Of a stretch of DNA of 64,000 nucleotides, positions 29,505 to 54,753 are shown one piece after another. Positions within the stretch are counted from its first letter, which is position 1; each line of letters begins with the position of its first letter. This stretch comes from Schizochytrium sp. TIO01 (taxonomy: Eukaryota; Sar; Bigyra; Thraustochytrida; Thraustochytriidae), in NCBI GenBank assembly GCA_004764695.1, contig SMSO01000036.1, positions 2,144,001-2,208,000 on the forward strand, given 5' to 3'. The translations under genes were made by a program, and so were the position numbers. The notes beneath the pieces are model-generated. The model saw only the letters and a list, made by a program, of their open reading frames with translations, was not told the origin of the DNA and made no database searches.

Positions 29505-32500
29505 CTAAGCAAAGAAACGTGCTAGAAGACCTTGATGTTCAGGATGGAGAGCAGTTGTTTCTCCATTTCCTGTGTTGTTAGATTCCGCAAGCTCGGATAG
29601 AGCAACCCATTGTGCCCCTTCTGGGAGAATTCCAAGATTACCAAGCTCTGCTTCTATATCATTTTCGACATACACAGTTCCAATAAAGAGCTCAGTCTTT
29701 TCAAAAGGAAATGTAAGAGAAGATGGCGAGTCTCGCGATAGAGACTGAGGAATTAGAGAAAGAACTAAACCTGACACTTCTTGAGCTAGAACCTCGGCCA
29801 CATGTAAAGAGTTTTCACCACTGTATAATCTTTGGCAAGGGAGCTCAAACATATGATTGGAAGAAGCTGTTTGTGTTGGGGGGGAATGAGGAGCCCGAAT
29901 TTTCATCTTTGGCACCTTTATTTGGTGGTAAAAGAAGTACGCTTTTATCTTCTTCAGCACAACCCTGAGCAACAACAAGAAGCAAGACTCCACGGGATGA
30001 AGTACTGAGCAAAGCGTTAGCATTGTTACTTGTATGCGTAGATACTTCTCCGGGCCTGGTAACCGAACCGCTCATGAGTAGGACACCTGGACGTGCATGA
30101 TCGAAGTCAAACCCAAGATCTCGTGCCTTGCTAGCTCTATCAAGTTCTTCTGCGCCTAGACGGATCCATACGCGCTGCACATCTGGATTCATTCGCCATG
30201 CCTCTACGGAATGACGAAAGGCTACAGCAAATGCGTCGAGGTCGTCATATGGCTCATCCTTTGGAACTTGGAGGAGTTTACCCCCATGCCAGTCGGTGGC
30301 AAAGTCTGCAAGTGGTACTTCCTCCTTTAATGATAGAACTGAGTTGGCATGCTCTACTAACTTGGCAAGTTCTTTATCTTCGCTCAAGATTGTATGTGGA
30401 ATTTCATTGTCCATGCGGCGAGCTTCTTCTGCGGCATCAATTTCTGCGAGAGCATCAGTCAAAACTTGGAATTTTAGTAGAGGAATTCCATTTCTTAGAC
30501 GTTGGCGAATCGAATTGCGCCAAGATGTTTCCATTTGCTCTGCGTCCGCTAGTCTCTTTTCTTCATAATCTGCAGTTGCTTTGGCAAACTTTCGCTTAGC
30601 CGTACGACGAGCACCTGTGTCCATGTGAACAAAGCGCTTCAGCATGCGCTGAAACTCATTTTCAACAACTTCGGGTGGATCGTCCATGAGGACTTTGGCT
30701 TTGACTTGGCCGGCATTTGCAGCTGGTGATGTCCACTTTCGGCGGCGAGGAGACCAAGGCGGGGCATGAGGTCTGAGTCGGAACTCAACTTTCTTTTGAC
30801 CGTTGCTGGTTGTCGTGGTGATGCTCACACTTTCGCAACTGTCTTTGCTGCCAGCTGACATTGCCGTACCGGGGGGACAGGAAGATGTCGTAGCGTTTGA
30901 TTCACTTGCATCATCTTCGGCATCACTGTCGTTAGTTGTTATCTTAAGGGAGTGTCCCAAGGTCCATCGACTTTCGCATGAATTTTTCCGTTTGACTGGG
31001 CTGAGAGGTGGCATGCCAGGGCCACGACGTGGAGTTTGAGGACCTTCTTGTTTGGTAGCGATATTAGGTTGAAAACTGACTTCTTGAGGTTGGATCTGTA
31101 TAGCAACCTTTTTCTCAGATTTACTTCCCTCATTTTGCTGTTGTTGCTGCTCCATCGTTAGGGCTTGAGACAGTGGCTGGGCTTGAGCTTGAGGCTTGGG
31201 AGGGAAACCACGCTCTGGAAGTGGAGGCTTTCGTATAGAAGCAGTTACAGATGTATTAATGTGTTCATCGAGTTTCTTTTGAGGAGAATTGTTGCTTTCA
31301 TCACACCCACTTTCAGATGTAGAAAGGCTCATGGAGTCCTCACTTTCTGACCTCACGGAGCGTTGCTCTTTCCTTTTCTTCTTCATTTTCTTCTCACGTT
31401 TAGAAATTTTGACTTCCCAGCTTGCCTCGGCAATGAGAAATTGTTCATCATCGTCACCGGTGGGGCTTGCAGGCTGAGTTGGTCTGCCAACAACTCCAAG
31501 GGTTTGTGTAGACTCAACGAAAACTACATTTCCAGCAGTATCCTGCGCATCTTTGCTGTTAGAGATCTTAGAATTATCTGAGCGAAAATCTTGTCCTTTT
31601 TTCCGTTCGTAATGCTGAGCATTAGCAGATGTAGATGACGGTGTATCGATGTTCTGGGATGTAGAGACCTGCATCTTTTTTGAAGAAGAAGAAGAAGAAG
31701 AAGAAGAAGAAGAAGAAGAAGAAGAAGAAGAAGCTGGTTGTCCCTTGCTATTTGTACTAGAAGGAGCTGGGCTAGTGAGTTGCCCACGTTTTTTCTTCGC
31801 ATGGCTCTTCTTGAAAGGAGATGTTTTGTTGTTGGGATAAGCTCCGTTTGAACCGGATTTTGCGCTTTTTTTAGCCTTATTTGAAGTTTGAGCTTCGATA
31901 AGGCGAAAGTCGCGCTCGAGACGCTCAAAGTCCTTCTGAGCTAACTCTTTTGCCCTGCGGCAATCGTCGGCCTGCTTTTTGCGGGCAGCCTCCGCTTGAA
32001 TTCTTCGTGCTTCCTTTTCGGACTCTTTGTTCAGATGAAGGATGGCGAGATAGGAATCTGGACATTTTTCCTGTCGCGCCACTTCGCCGAGCGTAAGACC
32101 TTGGATAGTCCTGCTTCCGAATAAGCTAGGATAGTTATTAAAGAAAAATTTGAGCATTGCACCTTGGTTACAGCCTGCAGCTGTATGTGCTGCGTTCCAG
32201 CCTCGCTCTGCGTCACAGGCCATTGGGTTTGCGCCGCAGCGTAATAGAAGTTTGACAGCATCGGTGCGGCCCTTAGCTGTGGCGTAGAGCAGTGGCGTGA
32301 CATCGATTTTGGTTCGTGTGTCAACGTGCGCACCATGATCGAGAAGCCACTGCATAACTTCGATATGACCGTAACCAGAAGCCAAGTGAAGCGCCGTGTC
32401 TCCGCGGTCGTCTGCCGTATTGACGTCCACATGTTGTTCTTCGACAAGCCATTTGATGCATTCCAAGCGTCCAGCTGCGGATGCTTCGAGTATAGGTTCT

Positions 32501-32811
32501 CCGCCACGAGCGTCGCGAACGTTTACTGGCATACCTCCAATGCTCGTGAGTATTTTAAGCATGTCAAGATCGCCTTTTTCAGCAGCAATGTGGAGCAGAG
32601 TCAACCCGTCTTGATCGAGTTGGAAGAGCACTTTGTCATCTGACTCGGGACCGACGTGGGCTGATGATTGAAAAATGCGCTTGACCTCAAGAGCGGCACC
32701 TTTTTGAACAAGTTCACGGAGGTTGCGAGTGAAATCTGTCATGGCACAAGTGTGCTCCATGGGTACAGCTTCGTAATTCATAATTGAGGATTTGGCGGTG
32801 TTGGTCGCCAT
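29505..32811 (-). CDS. Ankyrin - pre-Nudix - degenerate Nudix fusion, two exons or frameshifted
   Basis: The long first frame (32811 to 29845) encodes about five ankyrin repeats (about residues 65-235), a charged coiled segment, a Ser-rich linker with a poly-Ser run, a basic/Ser-Pro region and then a pre-Nudix domain (about 830-935) of the NUDT6 type: AFRHSVEAWRMNPDVQRVWI, then GFDFDHARPGVLLM. The Nudix fold that should follow continues in another frame down to 29505: FELPCQRLYSGENSLHVAEV, then ELFIGTVYVEND and GAQWVALSEL. A 97-nt GT-AG intron (29867-29963) joins the two in phase and gives 1069 residues with normal Nudix loop spacing. A one-base slip in the G7 run at 29878-29884 is the alternative. 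In the Nudix box the catalytic R-E-U-x-E-E positions read V-L-A-Q-E-V, so hydrolase activity is doubtful. Confidence 0.75.
29867..29963 (-). other. Candidate 97-nt intron in ankyrin-Nudix gene
   Basis: On the minus strand the donor is CAGG|GTTGTG (weak) and the acceptor ACAAACAG|CT after a C-rich stretch. Exon lengths 2848 and 362 sum to a multiple of three. Splicing brings the strand GVLLLVVAQ close to FELPC, as in typical Nudix proteins. Confidence 0.5.
31682..31733. repeat. (GAA)n trinucleotide tract coding poly-Ser
   Basis: About 17 GAA units on the plus strand are read on the minus strand as Ser codons inside the ankyrin-Nudix gene. The near-perfect unit suggests recent length change. 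Confidence 0.95.
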
Positions 32812-37353: not shown

Positions 37354-40332
37354 CTAAAAGCGACGTGTTGTACGATAGACTTGAGAAGCCAGCGAGAAAT
37401 TCGACCAAATGCCGTTGATGCTCGCTCGAACCCGAAAATGATACCCCGTGACAGGCTGCAGATCCGTAATGGAAACAACATTCTCTGCAAGATCGCGACC
37501 AGACTTTGGCGTAATCCATTCGGCAAGAGGTTCAAGACAATCATTTGCAAGATTGAAGCTACGATTGTCCAAATCTTCAACAACCTTCACTTGCACTTCA
37601 TAACGAATTTCTATCCCAGATCGAACACTGAAAAGTGGTTCCCACTCAAGACGTACCACAGAATCAGTACGGGATATAAGATGTGGCACCTGTGGGGGTT
37701 CACTTGGTCTCGTTGCAATTGGCTGCCCAGGTGACGAAAAGGAGCCCCATCCCATTTCATTATGTGCACGAACTGCAAAACGATAGCTACATCCCGGATC
37801 CAATCCACGGACTACCTGAGACTCATACCCTGGGTCTGCAGACAACTCGGGAGCATAATTAACCTGACTCGGAAATATAGATCGCCATGTTCCAAGCACG
37901 ACATCAGCACATCGTATATGAAATTTATCAATCGGATTGCCATTGTCACGAGGTACGCGCCATGTAATCCGTACAGAATCATGCCAAACATCGGTCAACT
38001 CCACATCAAATTCCTTCCCTCGACTTACAATTGGGGCCAAGGGTTCATTTGGGACTGCCATATCCGTCATCAAACCAATCGAGACCGGACACTCGTTCCA
38101 AGGCAGCGAAGCACAGTTCTCATCGCGAAAAGTTGGACGCACCCTTATATAGTACATTGTAGCTGGCGCCAGATCACGTACAATAAAGCTGTGCTCATCA
38201 CCCACAACTTGCGTTGTTACAGTTTCCCAAGGAGCCTTACGCCAGTCATACGCTCCATCATCTTCCAGCTCCTCAACATCTTCCTCATCCAGCACCTCTG
38301 ACGTCGAAGCATCTGTTGGCATCGCTTCTTTCATTGAAGCGTTTCCTGACTCCTCTGTTGCGGGCTCACTGATAATAGTCTTTGCTCCCGGATTTGTCTT
38401 AGCACCAGACCTCGCAGTCGGAGGAACAGTACGTTGAAGCTCCCAACGCACAATGCCACGTTGACGCATTTTCTCATCAATACTCTCAGACCAGTCAACC
38501 CCAAGCTCACACGAAGTTGCAAATATCCCACGCGCCGGTGGACGAGTACTCATTGGTTGACTCTCTGGGCCAAACTTAGAAGCTCCAATCTTATTTCGAG
38601 CGCGTATACGAAAAATGTAACTTGTGTCACTCTCAAGCCTGTCTGCTGTGTACTTTACTATACGAAATTCGTTATACACTCTTCGGTTTCCTGATTTCGC
38701 ATTTACCACACCTTGCGTGCTTCCTACAATCTTCTCTGAAACTGAATAATAGCATTCCTCCCCATCAGCGGCACGACGGGCTTGAAGCTCATAAGTATCA
38801 ACAACAAAGCCATTATTGGAATGTGGCGCTGGCCATTCCAGGTCTATTGAAACACAAGTAGCTCCTGTTTCAGATATTTTGGCTTTCCCAGGTGCATCTG
38901 GAACATCTGCAGCAGTAGTTACACGAAGTCGTTCGCCAACTGCTCCCCAGCCTGCTACACTCCTTGCTCGAACCGAGATGCCGTACTCTGTGCTTGGCAT
39001 TAAAGTTTTATCGAAGCTGTAAAGGACACGCGCATGCGCCCAGGAGGACTCTACGTCAGTTTTCTGGGACCTACTCACATTGTGGTTTCTGTTCCCATCA
39101 CCCTTTATCTCCGTTACGCTCTCGTCAGGCCCTTCAGCATCCCCGTCTTCCTCATCACTGCTGCTATCATCATCGACATCATCGTCATTCTCATCGTCCG
39201 GAAACCCAGAGCGAGATCCAAACGATGAAGAGAGAGAGAGCCTGCTTTTTGACTGTGCACGCTCAAGCCTTCGTTTCTGTCGCAACAGTTTGGCTTCTTT
39301 CGCTGCCTTCTTTTCGAAACAAGCTTGTAATGCAAGAGCTCGTCTCTCTGCATGTGGATTTGGTCCAAAGTCAGTTGCACAAATTAAAGCAGTTTTCACT
39401 ACTTCACCTCGATCTGGGTACAGCGCTGCCTCAACACCCCCGATTGGAAGCCAAGAAATCTCGTACTCTATTATTCTGACACCATGGTCATCTGGAATGT
39501 CCCATTCAATAGTAAGTGAGCGAGTCTCAGGAATCCCGCGCAAGCTGATTGTGTCAATTCGAGCTGGGGGTTCGCGAAGAGTATCCATGATCAGATCATG
39601 TGAATTTTCACAGGCAAGATCATAAGCCATCAACCCATATGAATTTTTCCGTAGCTTGTCTATTCCTGCTTCGCGTACAAGGAAAGTGACAAGTGCAGCT
39701 TGACCATTTTCTGCAGCCATGTGTAACGGAGTATTCCGTGTTCCCTTCTCTTCACAATGGATATCAGCCCCTCTTTTCACCAAAAATTTAGCAACTTTAA
39801 GTTGGCCATACATAGCAGCTGCATGCAATGCCGTATAACCAGTTCCTGTGTGTTGTGCATCAACGCTTTGTCCATTGCTCAGCATAGACTTCAGCTTGTC
39901 AATTTGGCCTGTTGCTGCAGCATCAATGAACAAATCGGACTTTGGGCTATGCAGCTCATGCTCTAGCATTTCCACAACACGACGAGCCAGCCGAGCAGCA
40001 AGTTCAACCTCTTTACCGGAGCCTTTGTAAGCTTCGATGAGTAGTCTTGCCACGGCGCCAGGTTTGTCTCGGAATGCGATACCCGCAGGCAGATTCTTTG
40101 GTTTCGGAGCCACATAAAAGTGCGGGATCTTCTCCAAATGAGGAGAAAAAACAGAGGTCACACCAATACCTAAGGTGTCGCTTTCTGCAAGACTTTTGCG
40201 TGTCTCTAATCGTTGCTTCCTAGTGGCTTCTGCAGACCGCCTTTCGAGTTCCTCGTCGAGGTCTCCACGACCAGGCACTCCACCTTTTGGCTGCCTCCAT
40301 CGTGAGCCACGAAGGTCACGAAGAGTGGCCAT
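37354..40332 (-). CDS. Ankyrin and fibronectin type III repeat protein
   Basis: A 992-residue single-exon protein with no signal peptide or membrane helix. Two to three ankyrin repeats lie at about residues 130-255 (GYTALHAAAMYGQLKVAKFL, NTPLHMAAENGQAALVTFL). About five fibronectin type III modules follow to the C-terminus, recognisable by W in strand B, YEL/YEV strands and the Y-x-F-R-V-R-A strand F pattern (YIFRIRARNKIG, YYIRVRP, YRFAVRAHNEMGWG, YHFRVRASINGIW). The first FN3 is split by a long insert (about 320-440) that is basic coiled at first and then strongly acidic (Asp/Glu/Ser). The third has another acidic insert. The layout resembles ANKFN1-like intracellular scaffold proteins of animals, but with more FN3 modules. 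Partner and process are unknown. Confidence 0.85.
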   Translation of the reverse strand: MATLRDLRGSRWRQPKGGVPGRGDLDEELERRSAEATRKQRLETRKSLAESDTLGIGVTSVFSPHLEKIPHFYVAPKPKNLPAGIAFRDKPGAVARLLIEAYKGSGKEVELAARLARRVVEMLEHELHSPKSDLFIDAAATGQIDKLKSMLSNGQSVDAQHTGTGYTALHAAAMYGQLKVAKFLVKRGADIHCEEKGTRNTPLHMAAENGQAALVTFLVREAGIDKLRKNSYGLMAYDLACENSHDLIMDTLREPPARIDTISLRGIPETRSLTIEWDIPDDHGVRIIEYEISWLPIGGVEAALYPDRGEVVKTALICATDFGPNPHAERRALALQACFEKKAAKEAKLLRQKRRLERAQSKSRLSLSSSFGSRSGFPDDENDDDVDDDSSSDEEDGDAEGPDESVTEIKGDGNRNHNVSRSQKTDVESSWAHARVLYSFDKTLMPSTEYGISVRARSVAGWGAVGERLRVTTAADVPDAPGKAKISETGATCVSIDLEWPAPHSNNGFVVDTYELQARRAADGEECYYSVSEKIVGSTQGVVNAKSGNRRVYNEFRIVKYTADRLESDTSYIFRIRARNKIGASKFGPESQPMSTRPPARGIFATSCELGVDWSESIDEKMRQRGIVRWELQRTVPPTARSGAKTNPGAKTIISEPATEESGNASMKEAMPTDASTSEVLDEEDVEELEDDGAYDWRKAPWETVTTQVVGDEHSFIVRDLAPATMYYIRVRPTFRDENCASLPWNECPVSIGLMTDMAVPNEPLAPIVSRGKEFDVELTDVWHDSVRITWRVPRDNGNPIDKFHIRCADVVLGTWRSIFPSQVNYAPELSADPGYESQVVRGLDPGCSYRFAVRAHNEMGWGSFSSPGQPIATRPSEPPQVPHLISRTDSVVRLEWEPLFSVRSGIEIRYEVQVKVVEDLDNRSFNLANDCLEPLAEWITPKSGRDLAENVVSITDLQPVTGYHFRVRASINGIWSNFSLASQVYRTTRRF

Positions 40333-41377
40333 GGCTCAGCAATGAGCTTTTCTTGTTGGCCGATTTTACAACCTTGTCAAACTGTTTATCAAGTCATAAA
40401 ATGAGAGCTTGCTACTGCTTGCTTTCTTCCACTAGCTTTGAAACCACCATCGCCAAAGGTGTGTACTCCCTTTACGTTTACGACACAGGACATTACCTAT
40501 CTGTCCAATAGGAGCAACGGCTATGATTTTCCATAGAACTAATAGGGTACACTATGTACTAGGAGTAGATATATGCAGAGTTAATAGTGACCGATACAGT
40601 GTTTGTTGTACAGACGGCATTCTAATAACTTGCAACGCTGAACGTCTGATGGTCCAAAGAGAGAGACACGCTGGCGGCCATTAACAAAAGCTGTTCGACA
40701 GTTTTATAAAGCTAGGCGAGCAGAGCACTATGAGAGATTGTGCTGTAATATTCCCTTATGACCTTCTGATGTGAAGACCTTATCATTGTTTTACGAAATT
40801 ATATTGCTGATTGATTTCGAAGGTGGCAGTCCCATTTCTCCTGCTCCAGTTATTTTAAAGTTCTAACCTATCTCTAATACAAAGAACTACTGTGTGTTTC
40901 GCTTCGAAGATTGGCTGCTCTGGGTGAGAAGCTATCCATGTTGTTTTAACGAGCAAATCATGGAGTATGATTTCAAGATTATGACTACTTTTGTAAATAC
41001 TTAAAGTAAACTGAAGTACAACACTCGTTCCTATTTTACCGTGGCATGATTTCTTGATATACTTATGTTTGCTTGAGAAAATTATTAAGTGTTTATTCAT
41101 TCCAACGTTATTAATATAAGCAAGAAGTTCTGCGTGGTTGCTCAAAAGTTTAGCGCAAAAGTAGATATTTGATTTTATTCATTACTTCTATAGACTTAGG
41201 ACAAAACAAACCAGGAAATGCTAAAAGTGGGAACTAATTATTTATTTTTATCTAAATAAGTTTTTTTCCTATCAAAATATTATCTACCAATATAAATTGT
41301 AGAGTACAACATTATTAAGCCATCTTGTCAGAGAGAAGGAACCCAGGAGTACTCTAGTAAGAAACGAAACAATGGGT
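40333..41377. other. Intergenic, 1 kb
   Basis: AT-rich sequence upstream of the ankyrin-FN3 gene and downstream of the CLPTM1-like gene on the same strand. Only short chance frames were seen. Confidence 0.6.
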
Positions 41378-51568: not shown

Positions 51569-52028
51569 AAGTTCTCCCGTTGCACGATCCTCCTCACAGG
51601 CTCGTGTGAGGGGGTTGCGAATCAGCATTGCGCCCTGCCTCTCATCCGCCACTGCACTTTTCTGTGCCACGGCAGTCGCAGTGGGGATGTGAGCGCAAGA
51701 TCCACGTCTGTTGCTTTGAAAGTGTGCTTTCACAGGTCACTTGCCTATGTGAGTAGACAGAGAACCAATGTCCCCCGGAGGCAATAGACGGAGGTATTTA
51801 AGATGTAGGGTTGTTTTAGCGTAAACTGCTAAGTGGGTGTGGCAGAACGGTCTTTGAAAGTTTTGAAGATTGTTTTCAAGTTGAGAGAGAAAAGAAAGAA
51901 AGAAAAGTAAAGAAAAGAAGAAAGGAGGAAAGTAAGGGAGAATAAGCTTGGAAATGTAATGCGTGTGAAGTTGAATGAACGAGGTTTGAGAATTATGGAA
52001 AGCAGAATCCTAACTTAGCATTGGAACG

Positions 52029-52715
52029 ATGCTGCGCGCAGGTTTGGGACAGGCGTCGCGTACGGCGGCGGCCTGGCGTGGACTTAGCACGATGTCTAAG
52101 CGTACGCGGTATGAGATCAGCGAGGAGACACTCCATGGCGCGAACATGGAGGCCAAGACCCTGATGGAGGGCGACCTCATCAAGCTCGACGAGCTCAAGG
52201 GCAAGGCTGTCCTTGTGTCGAACGTTGCAACAACGTGAGGCACGACTACAATGGGGTTTAAACTTGCCAACGAGCTCAAAGAGCAGTATGGCGACAAACT
52301 TGAGGTTCTCCTCTTTCCGTGCAACCAGCATGGTTACCAGAACTACCACGACAAGCAGGAGATCCTCAACTCACTCAAGTACGTCCGTCCGGGCGAAGGC
52401 TTCATCTCCAACTGCACTCTGATGGAGAAGTGTGACATCGCAGGTGAGAACATTCATCCTTTCTGGAAGACTCTCATCACCTCGATGCCGCTCCGTAACA
52501 CCACACCCACGTACGAATTCGAGAATCCGTTTGGCATCCAGAACAACAGCACCTTCCGCATGGCCGGTTGGCACCCTGTTGTTCCCCAGGATGTGATCTG
52601 GAACTTTGAATGGTTCCTCATCGGCCCTGACGGCAGACCTATCCGGCGCTACCACCCGCACCCGGAGAAGTTTGTGGAGCCTATCAAGGAGGATCTTAAG
52701 GAGCTCCTTGGCTAA
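52029..52715 (+). CDS. Selenocysteine-containing glutathione peroxidase (UGA at 52236-52238)
   Basis: A 228-residue glutathione peroxidase read through one in-frame TGA. It reduces hydrogen peroxide and lipid hydroperoxides with glutathione. The UGA codon (residue 70) falls in the active-site motif NVATT-U-GTT, where selenoprotein GPx has Sec. The frame is conserved on both sides. Downstream are LLFPCNQHGYQ (Gln100), EILNSLKYVRPGEGF, EKCDIAGENIHPF and IWNFEWFLIGPDG (Trp191, Asn192), which complete the Sec-Gln-Trp-Asn catalytic set. The long loop and RPGEGF block resemble animal GPx1-type enzymes rather than the Cys types of plants. The first about 20 residues (MLRAGLGQASRTAAAWRGLS) are Arg/Ala-rich and look like a mitochondrial presequence; Met22 could give a cytosolic form. 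A SECIS element is expected in the 3' UTR but could not be assigned by eye. Confidence 0.93.
52236..52238 (+). other. Selenocysteine UGA codon
   Basis: TGA in frame with both halves of the glutathione peroxidase, at the exact position of the catalytic residue. Confidence 0.92.
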
Positions 52716-54753
52716 ACTACTTTAGTCCTTGCGAGCTGCCGCTCCTTGTGCCAAGTGACCTTTTCTGTTGACCCTCTGATCTTTGTTATTTTATTATCGT
52801 GTGATGAGTTGAACTTTGCACGTAATTAACAACAAAGGCTGAGTTGTAGACAGGCAGGGTAGTTTTTCAAATCTTAAGAAAATCTGCACAAGATTTTGAT
52901 AGATATTTTCACGCGTCCTTTGTGATGCCCGAGCAAGTACCCACTGATGACGATGATGTTGTGTAAATTGAGTTGCTCTTTGCGAGCAAACGCATGGCTT
53001 CGTCCGAAAACAGGATGACGGATAGGGGGAGCGCATAAACCCACGTAAACCTGATGCCAATTCCTACCGGGACCACTTGCCGGCCACACCTTGGTCGAAG
53101 ATTTTGTCTACATCTTCTTGTCCGCTTGTTGCCTTTTTTCTTCTTCTTTTCTTTTCTTTTTTAAAATTGGAATAATATCTTGCTTCTTTTTTTATTAGAT
53201 ATCGCAATAATTGAAGAATCTATTACGATCTTCAAGATCAGCCATACACCGCTTGTCCATTTTGAAATTAATAACAAAATCACCTTTCTCCTGAATGAGC
53301 AGCCAAACGTCTTGTTTTGCTTTTGTCTTGAGGAAACAGAGACTCCATCATAATTTGAACTTTAGTTTTATTATTCTTTGAGTATCTCCACCCTATTCAA
53401 ACGCACTGGCCGCGACTTTTCGATGGACACGCATCTCACATTCTTCGCACTTCAAAGGGAACGCTTCATGTCGATATCAACCTATCTATTGGCAATGTTC
53501 TATCCACCATATATTTTGACTCATTGTATACCAAACGAGGAACAATCGTAGAGCCCAAACGGAGCTCCCTCTCCATGCAAAATGTCTTCGGTCGTGCCGT
53601 GAATGTCAAAATTGACCAAAATATATTTCTCAGAATTTTGCTAGTAGCAGCTATGACGCTCAGGTTCGAGGCAGAGATTTATCTGTCAATTTTGCCCGGC
53701 ACATTCACTTCGGCAAGTGCGAAGTACTTAGCATTAAGTCAAATCATAACCCGAATGCAATGTACAATCATACATGAGTGGCATCTTTATGAAAACTTAT
53801 GAAGGAACAAAAGAAGAAATGGAGTGGCTTTTGTGCCGGCTAATATGTTTGATAATCTTTGCTGCCGAGTTCATCAGTGTTGAGGCAGTGCCAAGATCGA
53901 CCGACACTCATTTAAGCATTGCAAGGAGAAATCTTATTTCTTCCGAAGTTGCTAGCGAAGGGATTTACACTTTACATAACCAATGCAAAGGAGTTGGAGA
54001 CGTGACGCTTCTAGACCTAGCCTCTTAGCCTTTGCAACAACTAGAGAAGCAAGCTGGAATTAGAATCCTATCTTTACATTTCATCAATCCAACAACTTGA
54101 AAATTCCAATGCTTAAAAAATAATATAAAATAATAATAAAATATCATGACGGTGTAAATTCTGTTTATTTATTTTTTCAAATAAAATAGTTAGTATTCAA
54201 GTTTTCTTTTTTTAAAGGTGGTCACAGTGGCTTTAGACAAAAAGTTAATTTTGAGAAAATGAACTTAAACCTTTGACCTTAGGAGGTCTTAATACATACA
54301 CAATGGTCTCCCCCTCAACTTCCTCGATTAATGATGAGGCGCTAGCCAAGGTTAAAGAAATACAACTGCAGTGAAGCTTTCCTTATTTACAGCTGTTCCT
54401 CCTTTCCAAACGTCGACCTCACTCTCCTGGAGTTCTTGGCGACGCCGATACCAGCTTCAATGAATCTGAGTGAAGCTAATGCCGATATTGTCCTCAATTA
54501 ATATTATTACTAATTATATATAGAGAGAGAAAATTTAATTTTAAAACGTATCTACTAAGACACTTACAAGCAGCTTTAAAGACAACAATGTTTCCAGCAC
54601 ATGTGCAGGTACAGATTGGGTTGATGCTCACAACTAGACAATTGTCATGATGTGCTAGATGTCGCCTGGAGAACAGACCCGGCTCGATTCTCTCTATGGC
54701 CCACTGAGTTTCTTCCATCTATTTAATTATTTTATTTATTTATATATAAATAC

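Follow-up and report, generated by a model that had tools for sequence, protein, structure and literature searches.

A combination of ankyrin repeats with a pseudo-Nudix domain is already known from KRIT1, an adaptor described as possessing a Nudix domain apparently without hydrolase activity ("pseudo-Nudix") along with NPxY/F motifs, ankyrin repeats and a FERM domain (PMC7729028). The Nudix family of KRIT1 (PF16705) is given as occurring only in animals in PMC12210691, which also describes the pre-Nudix domain PF18290 as preceding NUDIX, as present in eukaryotes and bacteria and as not found in the fungi studied there. Some enzymes of the NUDT12 type are described as carrying ankyrin repeats N-terminal to the Nudix domain (PMC6856373), and non-catalytic Nudix homology domains, including that of DBC1/CCAR2, have been reviewed (PMC5389931); the NUDT9-H domain of TRPM2 is described as a further domain of this kind. 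The gene presented here lies in a 64,000-nucleotide stretch (the window, whose numbering is used throughout) of contig SMSO01000036.1 of the thraustochytrid Schizochytrium sp. TIO01, the genome of which comprises 64.06 Mb in 37 contigs; genes of the window include those of eIF3 zeta and RPA, which are eukaryotic. It is slightly favoured that this gene, one locus in one genome, encodes a scaffold-type protein consisting of ankyrin repeats, a pre-Nudix domain and a catalytically dead Nudix domain (Table 1).

The two N-terminal elements of this architecture are encoded in a single reading frame (frame A), which opens with an ATG at 32811 and runs for 988 codons (32811-29848) to a stop at 29847-29845. 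The ankyrin repeats were identified with Pfam (Ank_2, 8e-32, 110.1 bits versus a cut-off of 27.3), and ankyrin proteins of the PDB match the repeat block with E-values down to 3.5e-73. The linker that follows contains a run of 17 serines (residues 361-377) and basic patches of the form K[KR]x[KR] at residues 339, 471 and 477. PF18290 exceeds its curated cut-off (28.9 bits versus 26.5, residues 840-913), scoring 28.5 and 28.3 bits on the C-terminal module alone and 31 bits in a genome-wide profile search. In the PDB the module is most similar in sequence to AtNUDT7 (E 5.9e-5), over a stretch that ends ahead of the Nudix box. The presence of ankyrin repeats and a NUDT6-type pre-Nudix domain in one protein, as proposed by an earlier sequence-only reading of this DNA, is thereby confirmed, and at the level of sequence comparison the origin of the pre-Nudix part from an AtNUDT7/NUDT6-type protein is demonstrated.

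PF18290 has three matches in the genome, namely the window gene and two proteins, 299 and 292 residues long and each encoded in a single frame, in which it is followed by NUDIX and no ankyrin match is found. These paralogues keep canonical Nudix boxes (PGGLVDQQEDLRDAVVREVFEETG and PGGLVDPGELLPEGACREVREETG) and score 73.8 and 80.4 bits on Pfam NUDIX (PF00293). A genome search using the module returned only the window locus, in its two frames, and missed both paralogues as well, so that nothing beyond close copies is excluded by it. Among 65 candidate stretches there was one bacterial relative of the paralogues (L012), while the viral contigs scanned yielded no relative, either with alignments of the paralogues or with the window module. 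An NCBIfam scan gave mainly ankyrin-type matches, far under their cut-offs.

The remainder of the gene lies in a second frame (frame B), which is offset by one base from frame A and stays open between 30071 and the stop at 29505. Its last 119 codons (29864-29508) contain no stops and have coding-type codon usage. Under a model trained on twelve stretches of the window, including 32811-30400 in frame A of this gene, they score 27.0, where training stretches of equal length average 23.9; 19 of 3876 overlapping six-frame stretches outside the training genes reach 27.0, some of which are possibly unannotated genes. The coding signal of frame A persists to about 29911. Every simple solution joining the two frames amounts to a shift by one base modulo three, and the products would be 1069 residues with a 97-nt intron (29963-29867), 1085 residues with a 49-nt intron and 1101 residues with read-through at a run of seven cytosines (C7). 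The first of these models, which is that of the sequence-only reading, is probably wrong: its donor is atypical, and it would remove KSVLLLPPNK together with a part of frame A that carries coding signal and a likely strand of the Nudix domain.

The tail looks Nudix-derived, a conclusion that at the sequence level is drawn from a purpose-built profile of 31 sequences. These comprise NudA, NudB, L012, five further proteins of the same genome and 23 viral proteins. Eight Nudix loci of the genome were fetched (L001 and L002 being NudB and NudA), of which L006 was dropped as no box was found in the ORF search; 27 viral loci were found by a Nudix-only alignment, and two without a matching box and two duplicates were dropped. 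For the spliced form of the tail (49-nt intron) the score is 8.5 bits, which none of 2000 and none of 5000 shuffles attained; the read-through form gives 5.7 bits (attained by 2 of 5000), and the part in frame B, taken by itself, 5.9 bits (4 of 5000). Across 235 overlapping segments of window proteins the maximum was 4.8 bits, so none reaches the spliced or the read-through score. Masking the box leaves the spliced form at 5.7 bits against a shuffle maximum of 2.5 (n=1000), and when the box only is shuffled 8.5 bits are reached in 19 of 1000 cases; the signal comes from the strand ahead of the box and from the W-strand behind it. True Nudix domains score 41.0-88.0 bits when left out of the profile (leave-one-out on 10 of the 31).

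A predicted structure agrees with this assignment, AlphaFold returning a Nudix fold for the tail when supplied with aligned Nudix proteins, and the origin of the Nudix part of the module from an AtNUDT7/NUDT6-type hydrolase can be regarded as supported by profile and fold prediction together. Several results weigh against it. The 31-sequence profile was built after weaker tests had failed: Pfam NUDIX gives no match to the tail at E<=10 (the filters drop most matches above about 0.1), the window locus is absent from the 18 NUDIX matches of the genome search, a 3-sequence profile scores -0.8 bits, a value that 171 of 1422 shuffles attain (those scored out of 2000 made), and hhalign assigns a probability of 0.3%. 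Global alignments are at chance: with BLOSUM62, 486 of 1000 shuffles match or exceed the summed score, and with BLOSUM45, 885 of 1000 do so, in a test so weak that some true Nudix controls also fall at z below 1. By a matrix of eight boxes, the box scores -11.9 bits, compared with -6.1 for the mean best segment of 5000 shuffles. As for the structure, an input alignment made up of canonical Nudix proteins itself biases the fold; without an alignment pLDDT is 33.8, the pre-Nudix part of the model reaches pLDDT 40-58, and the structural match to AtNUDT7 has a TM-score of 0.30 (rmsd 10.3 over 266 columns). Structure prediction, proposed earlier as a check, gave the expected fold from an input biased towards it. 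That the C-terminus is not Nudix at all, the pre-Nudix domain alone being real, would account for these failures, and we consider it quite improbable in view of the 31-sequence profile signal and the AlphaFold fold; moreover, PF18290 is described as preceding PF00293 (PMC12210691).

The way in which the two frames are joined bears on the product. By gene model, the profile gives 8.5 bits for the 49-nt intron, 5.9 for the 97-nt intron and 5.7 for read-through, and thus leans to the 49-nt intron, a point against the read-through favoured here. When 453 gene models were scored on a longer segment, the 49-nt model ranked only 11th (7.8 bits), behind implausible ones, and the 97-nt model 82nd (6.3 bits); choosing among models by profile is not decisive. 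Introns look rare in this genome: in 15 of 18 NUDIX matches a single frame covers at least 110 of the 134 profile positions, and among 67 matches to the myosin head there are 32 in which one frame spans at least 590 of 679. Three split chaperonin genes contain intron candidates with GTAAGT donors, of 259, 362 or 374, and 386 nt (exact ends unproven), while no GTAAG or GTRAG donor is present on the minus strand between 29401 and 30200. The frames switch in a region that contains the C7 run (the window has four C/G runs of at least seven), and elsewhere in this genome a myosin-head gene (G000:C31:2412149-2412168) also switches frame within its domain beside T5 and G5 runs, possibly by a homopolymer indel in the assembly. 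For these reasons (rare introns, lack of such donors, the position of C7 and the myosin-head precedent) an indel in the C7 run, most likely an assembly error, is favoured over a short atypical intron, and the real product probably reads through. The 49-nt intron, with its GT..AG ends and the better profile score, is a possibility that we would hold only tentatively, given its length and donor. A genuine frame change, the assembly containing the stop at 29847, would yield a 988-residue ankyrin and pre-Nudix product ending before the box, with the Nudix tail a decaying leftover; this is rather unlikely, as the 119 stop-free codons have full coding-type usage and the homopolymer and the myosin-head case point to the assembly.

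In a MAFFT alignment of 21 sequences (the structure alignment, using 19 of the 27 viral loci) the Nudix box is ungapped. P172, G179-E180, E192 and G195 are kept, whereas R has changed to V188, E to L189, E to V193 and GG to CQ, R-E-U-x-E-E thus reading V-L-A-Q-E-V. One of the three catalytic glutamates remains, and at most one in either alignment register; the canonical box GX5EX7REUXEEXGU with its metal-binding glutamates is not found in the window protein. The residue-by-residue description of the sequence-only reading (PCQ for PGG, Gly-Glu retained, a single catalytic Glu) is borne out by this alignment. The gapless match to the 23-residue box that it claimed holds in the MAFFT alignment, but an earlier alignment of four sequences placed gaps in the box, which also stands at chance by matrix. 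Of the positions that do not vary among the three canonical relatives NudA, NudB and L012, the pre-Nudix domain has kept 8 of 18, the box 4 of 12 and the Nudix part outside the box 5 of 18. The strands following the box had accordingly been overrated as well kept; decay is no stronger in the box than around it, so that a selective loss of catalysis on a fold otherwise preserved is not demonstrated. Divergence throughout the Nudix half is also what the decaying leftover behind a genuine frame change would look like.

What the favoured reading implies can be outlined as follows. The N-terminal ankyrin repeats of this large scaffold-type protein would bind a partner, as expected from the repeat family, and the long linker with its basic patches, probably disordered, would separate them from a C-terminal module derived from a pre-Nudix and Nudix hydrolase of the AtNUDT7/NUDT6 type. 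Hydrolysis of nucleoside diphosphates would not be expected of the Nudix half because two of the three box carboxylates, the arginine and the GG are lost. The most likely role of this half would be that of a pseudo-Nudix domain on which protein partners dock, with some nucleotide binding possibly retained.

NrtR and AraR are bacterial Nudix-domain transcription regulators with a DNA-binding part, and they head the structural list for the Nudix part of the window protein, tied with other Nudix proteins; that DNA-binding part and their bacterial origin set them apart from it. That the domain is a sensor binding a nucleotide such as ADP-ribose or NAD(H), a role described or predicted for NrtR, TRPM2 and DBC1, is an unlikely alternative to protein docking, much of the domain having diverged. 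TRPM2 NUDT9-H and DBC1/CCAR2 resemble the window protein as non-catalytic Nudix homology domains and differ from it in partner domains and Nudix subfamily.

The window protein resembles AtNUDT7 and human NUDT6 in the pre-Nudix sequence, the domain order (PF18290 and PF00293) and the predicted fold; compared with these, it has additional ankyrin repeats and a long linker, has lost the box and has no detectable PF00293. With KRIT1 it shares ankyrin repeats and a Nudix domain apparently without hydrolase activity, but in KRIT1 the Nudix domain is N-terminal and of another family, and the window protein has no FERM match. Its 1085-residue reading also has no NPxY/F motif, and the Ank_KRIT1 profile stays under its cut-off (35.2 bits versus 80, with 23.1 for another of the window's ankyrin genes). 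NUDT12-type NADH diphosphatases likewise have ankyrin repeats N-terminal to Nudix, yet their catalytic box, zinc ribbon and QPWPFP were not found in the window protein (QPWPFP by motif scan, the zinc ribbon in Pfam searches). The sequence-only reading knew of no described ankyrin plus pre-Nudix pseudoenzyme, and none was listed in searches of open-licence papers, which is weak evidence of absence; a combination of ankyrin repeats with a pseudo-Nudix domain is, however, described in KRIT1. More speculatively, an ankyrin-linked pseudo-Nudix scaffold may have arisen here a second, independent time, in a protist; its source would be a hydrolase of the AtNUDT7/NUDT6 type and not the KRIT1 lineage, and the dead domain would sense a partner or ADP-ribose/NAD. 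Provided that the protein is real and conserved, it would exemplify the convergent conversion of a Nudix enzyme into an ankyrin-linked binding module outside animals.

Table 1. Features of the ankyrin/pre-Nudix gene, in window coordinates
Feature	Position	Strand	Basis
Whole ankyrin/pre-Nudix gene	29505..32811	minus	Frame A, then frame B up to stop 29507-29505
Ankyrin block, about five repeats, residues 65-235	32107..32619	minus	Pfam Ank_2/Ank_4/Ank; PDB ankyrins
Charged stretch, then low-complexity linker	30295..32106	minus	Composition and motif scan
Pre-Nudix domain PF18290, residues 840-916	30064..30294	minus	Pfam profile
Putative Nudix-derived domain spanning the frame switch	29508..30006	minus	31-sequence profile; AlphaFold, Foldseek, VIA
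Putative Nudix box remnant PCQ..GE..VLAQEVSGL	29766..29840	minus	MAFFT alignment, 21 sequences
C7 run within the stretch of frame change	29878..29884	minus (C on minus strand)	Sequence scan
Candidate 49-nt GT..AG intron, donor GTGCCA, 1085 aa product	29867..29915	minus	Also joins the frames

Past the 3' end of the gene lies a convergent neighbour encoding a YHYH-domain protein (PF14240; 28123-29322, plus strand), and a second ankyrin protein, fused to fibronectin type III repeats, is encoded nearby (37357-40335, minus strand). The YHYH neighbour had suggested a diatom origin of the DNA, an idea that was dropped because a search for silicon transporters gave no match and because of the tandem acyl-carrier domains described below. 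Elsewhere on the plus strand of the window, a glutathione-peroxidase-like frame extending to 52712 contains an in-frame TGA at 52236-52238 (VSNVATT-TGA-GTTTMGFK), at what we take to be the position where glutathione peroxidases carry Cys or Sec. It is possibly a selenoprotein; an Rfam search of 52000-54000 at E<=5 listed no SECIS element. With 67 matches to the myosin-head profile (matches, not a gene count), the myosin family is apparently large for a genome of 64 Mb. Finally, ten tandem acyl-carrier domains, an arrangement typical of thraustochytrid PUFA (polyunsaturated fatty acid) synthases, were identified in one open frame of 2172 residues (G000:C4:611495-614707).
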